Below are positions 19,836-26,240 of a stretch of 34,757 bases of DNA, piece after piece. The stretch comes from Dehalococcoides sp. JdFR-56 (GTDB lineage: Bacteria; Chloroflexota; Dehalococcoidia; Dehalococcoidales; RBG-16-60-22). The position numbers were made by a program, and so were the translations under genes. Position 1 is the first letter of the stretch. Every line of letters starts with the position of its first letter. The DNA is taken from the NCBI GenBank assembly GCA_002011495.1, contig MTNR01000046.1:11898-46654 (forward strand), in the 5' to 3' direction. The notes beneath the pieces are model-generated. The model was not told where the DNA came from and ran no database searches. It saw only the letters and a program-made list of their open reading frames with translations.

Positions 19836-21599
19836 CTAGAAAAGCCCCCGAACCTTGCCGGTCTTAACGTCAATGTCTATTCTCCTGAAGGCCGGGTCAG
19901 AGCAGGTGCCCGGCATCAGGCTGATGCTGCCAGCGCAGGGACAGAGGAACTTGGCTCCGGAGTAGACCAGCACATCGCGGATGGGCAGTGTCCAGCCCTT
20001 GGGGACTCCCTTGAGCGCCGGGTCATGGGTAAGGGAGAGATGTGTCTTCACCATCATGGTGGCGTATTCATTATATTTGGGGTCGGCCTCAAATGCCTTG
20101 GCCTTGGCCTCGGCCTCGGGGGTCCAGCTCACGCCATCAGCCCCATAGACCACCTTGGCGATCTTCTCCACCCGCTCTCGCAGCTTCGTCTCCATGGGGT
20201 AGAGGAAGCGCAGCTCATTGCCCGCCTCGCAGGCTTCTATCACGGCATCAGCCAGCTCCAGGGCTCCATCACCACCGTGGGCCCAGTGGGTGGATACCGC
20301 GCAGCGTGCCCCGGCTTCCTCGGCTGCCTTGCGCACCAGGGCGACCTCGGCGTCAGTGTCAGTGGCAAACCGGTTGATGCACACCACGGGATTAATACCC
20401 GCGGTCCTGATGATGTTGATGTGGTGCAGCATGTTGCATAGCCCCTTTTCCAAGAGCCCCAGGTCCTCTTTGGTGTATTCATCGGGTAGAGGAATGCCGG
20501 CCACCACCTTGGGGCCACCGCCGTGCATCTTGAGAGCGCGGATGGTGGTGGTGAGCACTGAGACGTGTGGTTTGAGGCCGCTTAAGCGGCACTTGACGTT
20601 CCAGAACTTCTCAAAGCCAATATCAGCGCCAAAGCCGCTCTCGGTAACGTGGTAATCAAACAGCTTCAGACCAAGCCGGTCGCCGATGATGGAGGATTGG
20701 CCCACGGCGATATTGGCGAACGGGCCGGCATGCACCATCAGTGGCTGGTACTCCACCGTGGAGCAGAGGGTGGGGTTGATGGTGTTGCGCATCCAGGCGG
20801 CCATGGCCCCGGCCACCTCCAGGTCACCGGTAGTAATTGGGTTACCCTGCCGGTCGTAGGCCACGGTGATGTGATTCAGCCTCTCCCGCAGATCAGCTAG
20901 GTCGTTGACGATGGACAGGATGGCCATGAGCTCGGAGCTGACGCTGATGGCGAATTTGGACTGCATCATGTAGCCATCCATCCTGCCCCCGAGACCGATG
21001 ATGATATTGCGCAGGCTCTGGGCGCAGAAGTCTATTACCCAGCCCATCTCAACTCGGGTGGGGTCAATGTTCAGGCGGCGCATCTTGGTCAGCCGCTCCA
21101 GCTGCTCATCGGTGTAATTGCGCTCGTGCTGCATGCGGGCGGTGAGGGCAACCATGGCCAGATTGTGGGCGTTGGTGATATCGTTGATGTCCCCAGTGAG
21201 GCCCATGGAGAACTCGGTGAGCGGGATGAGCAGGGCATTGCCGCCACCGGCGGCGGTGCCTTTGATATTCATCGTTGGGCCCCCAGAGGGCTGGCGGATG
21301 CAGCCACCGACGTTCAAACCTCGCTTGCCCAGCCCCTCGATGAGGCCGCAGGTGGTGGTGCTCTTCCCCTCACCCAGCGGGGTGGGGGTGATGGCGGTGA
21401 CCTCAATGTATTTGCCGTCTGGCCTGTCTTTGAGGCGCTCAATTATCTTCATGAAATCAAGCTTGGCGACTCTCCCGTAGGGGAGAATCTCATCCTTTTC
21501 CAGGCCCAGCCTCTCCCGCCACTCATCAGGGGTTGGCATGTTAGCCTCAGCTGCTTCGGCGATCTGCCAGTCCTTCATTTTGGTTGCGTCGTAAGCCAC
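19836..21599 (-). CDS. fhs: Formate-tetrahydrofolate ligase
   Basis: 587 aa, somewhat longer than the usual 555-560. The P-loop is [13 protein letters not shown] (71-83). Further family segments are [45 protein letters not shown], and the [17 protein letters not shown] stretch. It activates formate with ATP to 10-formyl-THF, the entry to the methyl branch. The start is GTG at 21599, with AGGAGG five bases upstream. It lies 23 bp after the first ATPase gene and ahead of acsV. The motif [12 protein letters not shown] differs a little from the more common QPSLGPVFGIKGG form, consistent with a divergent subfamily. Confidence 0.96.
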
Positions 21600-21622
21600 G
21601 GATACCTCCTGTCTTTCGTTTT

Positions 21623-22417
21623 TTATATGTTAATTTTTTGGTGATGGCTTGGTTGCTGACTCAAGAGCTTCTGGTAAATGTTCCTCACCTCGTTGGTCAC
21701 CTGTGGGCTGGCCTCAAGAAGGGAAAGATTGGCTAGCTCAGCATCAACGATGGCCTGGTCATAGGGGATAAAGCCGAGGAATTCAAGCTGGGGAAGGCTG
21801 GAGCGCAGGAATTCCTGGTCTTTTTGGTTGCGGATTTTGTTGCCCACCGCGCCCAGATTCTTGAGCCCAATGTCTTGGGCTAATTTGTTGATGGTCTGGG
21901 CGGTTTCCAGGCTGCGCCGGCCTGGCTCAACCACCACGATAAGCTTATCCACGGCGCCGGCGGTGGCCCGCCCCAGGTGCTCGATGCCAGCCTCCATATC
22001 CATGATGACCACCTCATTGCGGGCCAGAAGCAGGTGGCTGACCAGAGCTTTGAGCAGGGTGTTCTCCGGGCAGTAACAACCGCTACCACCCTTTTTGGCC
22101 CGTCCCATGACCATCAGCTTGATGCCGTCAAGCGCCTGCCAGTATTTCTCCGGCAAGTCATCAACCTTTGGATTGAGTTTAAAATAAGCGCCCGCTTGCC
22201 CTGGCTGGGCTCCCGTTCTCTCGGCGATGAGGTCTTTCATCTCAGAGATGGGGACGATTTTCTCCGGGTGGGGGAAACCAAGGGCCGCGGCCAGATTGGC
22301 ATCAGGGTCAGCGTCAATAGCGAGGACGGTGTAGCCAGACTGAGCGAAGGTGTGGGCGAGCAGCGATGCCAGTAGAGTCTTGCCTACGCCACCTTTACCA
22401 CTAATCGCAATTTTCAT
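21623..22417 (-). CDS. AcsF/CooC-like nickel-maturation ATPase (first gene of the operon)
   Basis: 264 aa from the ATG at 22417; a TTG one codon upstream is also possible. MinD/ParA-family fold with GKGGVGKT (7-14), DADPDANL and the C-x-C pair C114/C116 (GCYCPEN), as in CooC and AcsF. It is clearly distinct in sequence from the second ATPase at 17066-17833. By analogy with Moorella, one of the pair may load nickel into AcsB (AcsF role) and the other into CooS; the sequence alone does not say which. The ribosome binding site is weak. It is the first gene after the operon promoter and an approximately 88-nt leader that holds a hairpin. Confidence 0.9.
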
Positions 22418-22442
22418 CAATGTCTTGCTTCTGACATAATTA

Positions 22443-22475
22443 AAGCTGAGACTTTTTGTGAAAGTACTCAGGCTT
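22443..22475 (-). promoter_or_regulatory. Hairpin in the 5' leader of the Wood-Ljungdahl operon
   Basis: On the minus strand the leader can fold as AAG/CTT plus CTGAG/CTCAG plus ACTTT/AAAGT, thirteen pairs with two single-base bulges and a 5-nt loop. It ends about 25 nt before the first ATG. Only a weak U-rich run (CUUUAAUU) follows, so it may be an attenuator, a protein-binding or stability element, or chance. It matches no riboswitch class I know. Confidence 0.45.
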
Positions 22476-22511
22476 AGTGGAAGCTGGCCTTTATTGGTCG
22501 CCCAAACTCAT

Positions 22512-22540
22512 AGTTTATCCCATGCCCGCGGAAAAGTCAA
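22512..22540 (-). promoter_or_regulatory. Sigma-70-type promoter of the Wood-Ljungdahl operon
   Basis: Minus strand: -35 TTGACT (22535-22540), 17-nt spacer, -10 TAAACT (22512-22517). The predicted start near 22505 leaves an approximately 88-nt leader before the first ATG. It is the only strong promoter seen upstream of the sixteen closely spaced genes. Confidence 0.7.
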
Positions 22541-22541
22541 G

Positions 22542-22578
22542 AAAAAATGCCCCCGGCGAGAGGGGGCGGCTGGGGGCA
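22542..22578 (-). terminator. Intrinsic terminator of htpX
   Basis: Directly after the htpX stop codon the minus strand reads TGCCCCC, then a 17-nt spacer, GGGGGCA and TTTTTT. This gives a perfect 7-bp GC-rich stem followed by six T. A shorter alternative stem uses the inner C-run. The T-run ends one base before the -35 of the next promoter. Confidence 0.88.
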
Positions 22579-23544
22579 TCAGGTGGTGAGGGTGGATAGA
22601 TGCTTTATCCTTTTCAGCATGTTGGGGTGCGTGGTGAAAAGCTCCATCAGCTTCTGGGTGGTATCAAGCCGCACCTTTTTCTGGCGCAGCGCTAAGAGCT
22701 CATCATAGTCAATGGTGCCGCTCATGTCCAGGTCAACTTGGGCAAGTTCCCTTACCTCATACCACGCCCGTGAAGGGTCATTGACGAAGAAGGCCTTAAC
22801 CCCCTCCACCCGTCGCATCTCTGGGCTAGTTCGCATGCGGGCGTTGCCGTAGACCAGCTTGTAGAGAGCGGTGGCCAGGTGATGCGGCATATTGCCCATG
22901 CGCACGCTGCCCAGGTCAGCATAGTACTCCCGAATTCTGGAGCCATAGAGCACCAGGAGATTGGTGATGAAATAGAGGATAAAGGCCCCCAGCCCGATGA
23001 GCGCGGCATAGCCGCCGCCTTGTCTGCGGCCACCAAAGGCGCCTCCCCACATCATGCTGAAGGCTATCCAGTACATTATCAGCGGGATAACCGAGATGAG
23101 GGTGATGACGGCCATGTCACGGTGCTTGATATGGGCTAGCTCGTGCCCCAGCACTGCTTTTAGCTCCTCTTTGCTCAGCAGCCTCAGGATGCCTTGGGTA
23201 ACGCAGACCCGCCCGTCTTTCTGCGTCCGGCCGAAGGCGAAGGCGTTGGGTATGGAGAGCTGGGAGATGCCGACTTTGGGTTTGGGTAGATTCGCCCTCT
23301 CGGCGAGCTCCGCCACCATTCGGTGCAGCTCTGGGGCTTCTTGCTCTGAAACCCACTTTATCCTCATCGTCCAGCCGACAATAGCCGGGCTAATCAGATA
23401 CTGAATGCCGAGAAAGACGAAGGCCAGAATGATATAGGAAACCGCGCTGCCGGCGCCCATCCAGGTACCGATGCCGGCGATCACACCGTAAAGGATGCCA
23501 AATAGCACTGTGATGAGCAGGAACATTCTTGCCTGAAGCCACAT
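22579..23544 (-). CDS. htpX: HtpX-family membrane zinc metalloprotease with an EF-hand loop
   Basis: 321 aa, M48 family. Two N-terminal membrane helices (about 7-28 and 33-57) and two more (about 145-165 and 180-200) flank the catalytic HELAH (134-138); the third zinc ligand is probably E206 in EYYAD. It degrades damaged membrane proteins. The unusual part is residues 271-282, DLDMSGTIDYDE, which matches the 12-residue EF-hand calcium loop at positions 1, 3, 5, 6, 8, 9 and 12. It is inserted in the C-terminal cytoplasmic domain before the closing TTHPNMLKRIKHL segment. The ATG at 23544 has AGGAGG about ten bases upstream. The gene is monocistronic between its own promoter and terminator and divergent from thiC. 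Confidence 0.95.
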   Translation of the reverse strand: MWLQARMFLLITVLFGILYGVIAGIGTWMGAGSAVSYIILAFVFLGIQYLISPAIVGWTMRIKWVSEQEAPELHRMVAELAERANLPKPKVGISQLSIPNAFAFGRTQKDGRVCVTQGILRLLSKEELKAVLGHELAHIKHRDMAVITLISVIPLIMYWIAFSMMWGGAFGGRRQGGGYAALIGLGAFILYFITNLLVLYGSRIREYYADLGSVRMGNMPHHLATALYKLVYGNARMRTSPEMRRVEGVKAFFVNDPSRAWYEVRELAQVDLDMSGTIDYDELLALRQKKVRLDTTQKLMELFTTHPNMLKRIKHLSTLTT

Positions 23545-25115: not shown

Positions 25116-26240
25116 ATGGGTGGCGCAATCAATTTAGGCAAAATCTTCGGCATCCAGTTCCGCCTGCACTATACCTGGTTTTTCATCTTTGTTCTCATCA
25201 CGGTCTCCCTCTCCTGGCAGTACTTCCCCTCCTTCTATCCGGGCTGGGGTGCGCCAACCTACTGGGTCACCGGCATATTTACTAGTTTATTATTTTTCAG
25301 CTCGGTGGTGGCACATGAGCTGGCGCACAGCCTGGTGGGCCGAGCCAATGGCATCCCGGTGAGGAGCATCACCCTCTTTATTTTCGGTGGGGTGGCCCAT
25401 ATGACCCGGGAGGCAGCGCGCCACAGCGCGGAGCTCAAGATGGCTGCGGCCGGGCCCATCTCCAGTCTGGTCATTGGGGGGCTATTTTTTCTGCTCCATC
25501 TACTACTGGGGGGGATAAGTGAGCCCATAGCCGCCATGACCTTTTGGCTGGCGCAGATAAACGTGGTGCTGGCGGTCTTCAACCTCATTCCTGGCTTTCC
25601 TCTGGATGGCGGGCGCGTCTTTCGCTCCCTTCTCTGGCGCTTCAGCGGTGATTACCAGCGGGCCACCCGGATTGCCGCCCGGGTCGGGCAGGGCATCGGC
25701 TATCTCTTTATCGGCGGTGGCATCATTCTCATGTTCCTCTTCTCCCGTCAGTGGTTCAATGGTCTGTGGCTTGCCTTTATCGGCTGGTTCCTGACCTACG
25801 TCGCCGCGGCCAGCTACCGCCAGACGCAATATCAGCTGGCGCTGGAGGGGGTCACCGCTGCCGAAATGATGACCTCTACCTGCCCGGTGGTATCGCCTGA
25901 GGTTACGGTGAGCCACGTGGTTCAGGAGTATATCTCTGCCATTGGGCACCGCTGTTTCTTGGTTGCCGAGGATGGGGAGCTCAAAGGGATTCTGACCTTG
26001 GGGGACATCAAGTCGGTCGGCCGGCCAGATTGGGAGATAACCCGGGTGAGGAATATCATGACCCCGGTGGAGAAGCTAAAAGTAGCCTTCCCCGAGCAGG
26101 ATGTGCTGAGCATGCTGGAGCAGATGGAGGAGTATAACATCAACCAGATGCCTGTGGTCAGCGAGGGGAGGGTTGTTGGACTGGTCACCCGCGATGGCGT
26201 GGCCAGGTTCCTGCGCACCCGCTCCGAGCTGAGGGTATAG
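25116..26240 (+). CDS. Site-2-protease-like membrane metalloprotease (M50) with two CBS domains
   Basis: 374 aa. About six membrane segments. The zinc site is HELAH (H67, E68, H71), with the third ligand Asp in PGFPLDGGR (D164). Residues from about 245 form a tandem CBS pair (for example VSPEVTVSHVV and MTPVEKLKVAFPEQDVL), which in other proteins binds adenine nucleotides. Such proteases cut membrane proteins within the bilayer; the target here is unknown. The start is 13 bp after the thiC stop, with only a weak GGATAA ribosome site, so it is probably co-transcribed with thiC and therefore partly under TPP control. Confidence 0.92.
   Translation: MGGAINLGKIFGIQFRLHYTWFFIFVLITVSLSWQYFPSFYPGWGAPTYWVTGIFTSLLFFSSVVAHELAHSLVGRANGIPVRSITLFIFGGVAHMTREAARHSAELKMAAAGPISSLVIGGLFFLLHLLLGGISEPIAAMTFWLAQINVVLAVFNLIPGFPLDGGRVFRSLLWRFSGDYQRATRIAARVGQGIGYLFIGGGIILMFLFSRQWFNGLWLAFIGWFLTYVAAASYRQTQYQLALEGVTAAEMMTSTCPVVSPEVTVSHVVQEYISAIGHRCFLVAEDGELKGILTLGDIKSVGRPDWEITRVRNIMTPVEKLKVAFPEQDVLSMLEQMEEYNINQMPVVSEGRVVGLVTRDGVARFLRTRSELRV

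Follow-up and report, generated by a model that had tools for sequence, protein, structure and literature searches.

HtpX-type proteases are M48 zinc metalloproteases with a cytoplasm-facing catalytic domain (PMC9263693). In the related E. coli protease BepA, the HPx4R active-site plug functions as an on/off switch in which the plug histidine, H246, is the fourth zinc ligand and movement of the plug is required for activity, and this motif is conserved throughout M48, HtpX included (PMC7950410; PMC8423444). At least one pair of EF-hands is considered necessary for Ca2+-dependent activation (PMC3997525). Each of the three elements, HtpX, the EF-hand and the M48 plug, is already known; for an EF-hand within HtpX, neither a description nor a biochemical report was found in the open-licence literature searched, and the 2006 survey of bacterial EF-hands (Zhou et al.) may list such proteins.

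The stretch analysed here (the window, 34,757 nucleotides of a Dehalococcoidia genome; all coordinates are window positions and all features of this gene lie on the minus strand) encodes a 321-residue protein at 22579..23544, originally predicted to be an HtpX protease. Its translation and its match to the Pfam Peptidase_M48 profile (2.1e-42) agree with this, placing it in M48 as an HtpX-like enzyme. A genome scan followed by wider searches yielded 196 different M48 sequences in all, of which 112 unbroken, non-redundant sequences constitute the close family. The HExxH zinc-binding motif (residues 134–138, 23131..23145), the third zinc ligand E206 (22927..22929) and the HPx4R plug motif (residues 306–312, 22609..22629; role as in BepA, PMC7950410) are all invariant across the close family, with H134, E135, H138, E206, H306, P307 and R312 each found in 112/112 sequences. 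The enzyme therefore looks intact and is expected to be active. Two N-terminal hydrophobic stretches (residues 2–29 and 31–59, 23368..23541) are helical in the AlphaFold2 model and, from what is generally known of the HtpX family, presumably anchor the protein in the membrane. The best score against the curated NCBIfam HtpX equivalogs was 224.5 bits versus a cut-off of 341, and most NCBIfam HtpX models cease to match upstream of the EF-hand loop. The protein thus belongs to an HtpX-like M48 subfamily that has no NCBIfam model of its own and lies outside the curated equivalogs.

This protein was compared with the closest described systems. E. coli HtpX (b1829) has the same elements in the same order, namely N-terminal membrane helices, HExxH, a glutamate as third zinc ligand and the HPx4R plug, but lacks the stretch containing the EF-hand entirely by alignment, as had been claimed for the loop. 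BepA shares the M48 core and a plug whose histidine can occupy the zinc (PMC7950410), but is periplasmic, carries a TPR domain and has no EF-hand. The distance from the third zinc ligand to the plug histidine is 100 residues in the window protein (E206–H306) versus about 54 in E. coli HtpX (third-ligand position taken from the alignment) and 45 in BepA (E201–H246), indicating that the EF-hand sits in the linker leading to the plug. The additional sequence is an insert of about 40 residues, approximately residues 257–295 (22660..22776; edges approximate, from alignment with short-type and E. coli HtpX), located between E206 and the plug at H306–R312. In a PDB sequence search the window protein matched the HtpX domain 3cqb, and a Foldseek search with the full model returned M48 relatives only, the best being Ste24p and ZMPSTE24 (E = 1.7e-4 and 7.7e-4), which are larger membrane enzymes matched at a TM-score of only about 0.5. 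We know of no EF-hand insert in Ste24p or ZMPSTE24.

Residues 271–282 (DLDMSGTIDYDE) had been put forward as a canonical 12-residue EF-hand loop with glycine at position 6, a hydrophobic residue at position 8 and glutamate at position 12, and this description is upheld by the homologues, 111/112 of which fit the canonical pattern. The coordinates first given for it, 22698–22734, were right at their end and one base too low at their start, the exact span being 22699..22734. Pfam EF-hand_5 covers residues 267–285 (E = 1.1e-4) at 21.9 bits, just under the 25.9-bit cut-off, and in a phmmer search of the PDB the loop stretch separately matched calmodulins and calcium-dependent kinases (best calmodulin E = 0.0012). 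Like the calmodulin-type EF-hand, the loop follows the pattern D1, D/N3, D/S/N5, G6, I8, D/S9 and E12 and has predicted helical flanks. In contrast to calmodulin, it is single and lies within an enzyme domain, and its metal binding is predicted. A search for a second or degenerate EF-hand near the loop found none, each protein having a single motif, and the pairing that characterises canonical EF-hands is hence missing within the protein. Shuffled versions of the window protein contained the motif in 13 of 20,000 cases, so that the motif alone is merely suggestive and the homologues decide.

Their conservation follows the EF-hand pattern closely. Among the 112 close homologues, position 1 is D in 111 and Y in one, position 3 is D (87) or N (25), position 5 is D (55), S (41) or N (16), position 6 is always G, position 8 is I (106) or L (6), position 9 is mostly D or S and position 12 is E (102) or D (10). 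The Asp/Glu positions, whose lack of conservation would have counted against the original prediction, are thus conserved. Conservation covers positions 1, 3, 5, 6, 8, 9 and 12, while few residues of the protein vary as much as positions 2, 4, 7, 10 and 11, with a mean entropy of 0.63 bits at the EF-hand positions and 2.90 bits at the five free positions, against 1.44 bits for the whole protein. This contrast is reached by the EF-hand split alone out of the 792 possible 7+5 splits of the twelve positions, and residue 271 gives the best fit of the EF-hand template to homologue conservation among the 309 windows of the protein. Such a pattern is typical of a loop that has been preserved for the sake of its metal ligands. 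The Pfam EF-hand_5 cut-off is exceeded by 8 of 10 methanobacterial orthologues, so automatic annotation has probably already tagged the EF-hand in archaeal members; the EF-type HtpX is an undescribed subfamily, not an unseen one. The one close homologue altered at position 1 (L114, YLDQDGEISAND) comes from a Methanobacteriota genome. In a Dehalococcoidia homologue (L193, G657:C19:76908-77861), an in-frame TAG interrupts the coding sequence about 26 codons upstream of the EF-hand loop, which is itself intact; a recent nonsense mutation, an assembly error or recoding may account for it.

Flanking helices, the absence of which would have counted against the original prediction, are present in the metal-free AlphaFold2 model (mean pLDDT 79.8; about 80 locally). 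A predicted E helix spans residues 257–267 (22744..22776) and a predicted F helix residues 280–285 (22690..22707), whose start at loop position 10 matches that of canonical EF-hands. This model gives only moderate support for helical flanks around the loop. A model of the C-terminal fragment agrees on the helix–loop–helix, at a confidence (pLDDT 54.9) too low for it to be used. Foldseek matched the fragment model to two structures only, caltractin and the scallop myosin regulatory domain, at E-values of 5.7 and 7.5 that are too weak to serve as evidence.

The loop is found in both Bacteria and Archaea. Of the 24 loci returned by the genome scan, 20 carry it within an insert, and these derive from Dehalococcoidia and other Chloroflexota bins, NPL-UPA2, Psychracetigena, a Thermodesulfovibrionales bin, a Methanobacteriaceae archaeon and Jordarchaeum. 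The remaining four (Halarchaeum, Uliginosibacterium, Aminicenantes and a planctomycete) are classical HtpX, in which the preceding turn joins the STHP motif directly. The EF type occurs in 120 of 152 sampled Methanobacteriota genomes, with 18 having the short type only and 14 having no match, in 40 of 343 Dehalococcoidia genomes, and in about half of the genomes sampled from the window's own family. In the Asgard sample, the close type was found in 7 of 148 genomes, along with further paralogues bearing an EF-hand at the same place, while three Asgard lineages have kept the insert with the ligands missing. In the Nitrospirota the EF type was found in 1 of 198 genomes, one already in the homologue set, and this single case may reflect transfer or a binning error. 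The 18 short-only methanobacterial genomes are consecutive in the genome list (G446–G464) and probably form one group; only short HtpX without an EF-hand was matched in them, as though the gene had been replaced, and all three of those read lack the insert. Since this group and most Dehalococcoidia are without the EF type, the loop is dispensable for basic HtpX function. The HtpX paralogues from Asgard archaea that have an insert in the same position and no EF-hand ligands comprise L123–L131, L133–L135, L137, L139–L141, L143, L144, L202 and L203, and many of them are open frames of 560–580 residues with extra sequence.

In a tree of core residues 1–235, with the insert excluded, all 44 of 44 short proteins fell on one side of a branch and all insert-bearing proteins on the other (SH-aLRT 100; a quick, unrooted search without bootstraps), and the presence of the EF-hand costs four changes. 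The insert is considered derived because E. coli HtpX and BepA lack it, rather than from any rooting of the tree. The loop therein has been retained by selection in an old HtpX branch that extends across methanogens, Asgard archaea and Dehalococcoidia.

Judged from sequence, the EF-hand is real and conserved and very probably binds metal, making divalent-metal binding a well-supported prediction, and a regulatory role is plausible. The original suggestion of a protease tuned by calcium or another divalent ion is supported in part, and it had foreseen neither the large archaeal and Dehalococcoidia branch marked by the loop nor the position of the loop directly upstream of the plug. The loop should be cytosolic, given that HtpX has its catalytic domain on the cytoplasmic side (PMC9263693). 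The best reading, though we hold it tentatively, is that the divalent-metal site positions or gates the plug and so tunes the protease. Ca2+ (or Mg2+) would be bound by D271, D273, S275, the backbone at 277, D279 and E282, and the bound metal would fix the angle between the two helices flanking the loop. That angle would in turn cause the plug histidine to be held at, or freed from, the catalytic zinc, and the state of the plug would tune when the protease opens to substrate. The coupling of the EF-hand to the plug is suggested by its position, and the metal may change activity either up or down. Glutamate at position 12 of an EF-hand loop is the calcium-preferring form, and its occurrence in 102/112 homologues suggests Ca2+ as the ion over Mg2+. 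A bolder version, in which a single EF-hand moves the HPx4R plug so that cytosolic Ca2+ directly gates this old, archaeal-type branch, making it a prokaryotic calcium-switched membrane quality-control protease, seems to us rather unlikely. Several points speak against the preferred reading, plug positioning. The EF-hand is single and unpaired, and on its own it may have too low an affinity for Ca2+ at the submicromolar levels of the cytosol. No further EF-hands were recognised in the genome, so nothing there points to a broader calcium system. Basic HtpX function does not need the loop, three Asgard lineages have the insert without the ligands, and the metal-free model is of moderate confidence in this region.

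The main rival to plug positioning, and one nearly as likely, is that the EF-hand is a constitutive structural site, always loaded with Mg2+ or Ca2+, which staples the fold of the insert and senses nothing. The solitary, unpaired state of the EF-hand and its being the only one recognised in the genome are as expected for such a site, as are the loop-less HtpX proteins present in the same phyla, and cytosolic Mg2+ is millimolar. Against this, the calcium-preferring glutamate predominates at position 12, and the adjacency of the loop to a known regulatory plug hints at more than packing. Moreover, sister lineages have an insert without the ligands, so metal is not strictly needed to keep one in place there. 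It is improbable, by comparison, that the EF-hand acts mainly as a docking surface for a substrate, a partner or another protease molecule of the same kind, the metal serving to stabilise its fold. EF-hands normally pair, and two protease copies could pair theirs; in the deubiquitinase MINDY3, an inserted EF-hand functions as a ubiquitin-binding domain (PMC13354579). However, no conserved neighbouring gene outside the family offers a partner, and the loop varies freely except at its ligand and hydrophobic positions. Chance resemblance without metal binding, to which the sub-threshold EF-hand_5 score of the window protein and the recovery of the motif in shuffled sequences might point, is so improbable that we regard it as ruled out, because exactly the ligand positions are conserved across bacterial and archaeal homologues and archaeal orthologues exceed the Pfam cut-off.

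It is unusual for a prokaryotic membrane protease that faces the cytosol to contain a canonical EF-hand in its catalytic domain. If metal does gate the plug, as in the preferred reading, this would represent a simple control of membrane protein quality control by Ca2+ or Mg2+ in methanogens, Asgard archaea and Dehalococcoidia. It would also provide an example of how a small ligand can switch the plug mechanism general to M48. The family contains natural controls in the form of sister proteins that have the insert without the ligands and short proteins from the same phylum.

A CooC-type ATPase gene and Fhs lie beside the HtpX gene (19836–23544 including HtpX), an arrangement conserved solely within the window's own family, and a functional operon partner was discarded on the grounds that these neighbours are common only to that family. 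A large Wood–Ljungdahl cluster lies on the minus strand (444–22420) and includes NADH dehydrogenase-type and molybdopterin subunits, an ACS/CODH beta subunit, a prismane-type CO dehydrogenase, a RACo-like activator, CooC-type ATPases and Fhs. A second membrane metalloprotease gene, of the M50 site-2 type with CBS domains, lies nearby at 25116–26240, with a ThiC-like gene between it and HtpX. At another locus (L013:7202-8641), the EF-type HtpX is followed downstream by a LemA-like gene, recognised by eye, and by a second HtpX of roughly 400 residues without the loop.
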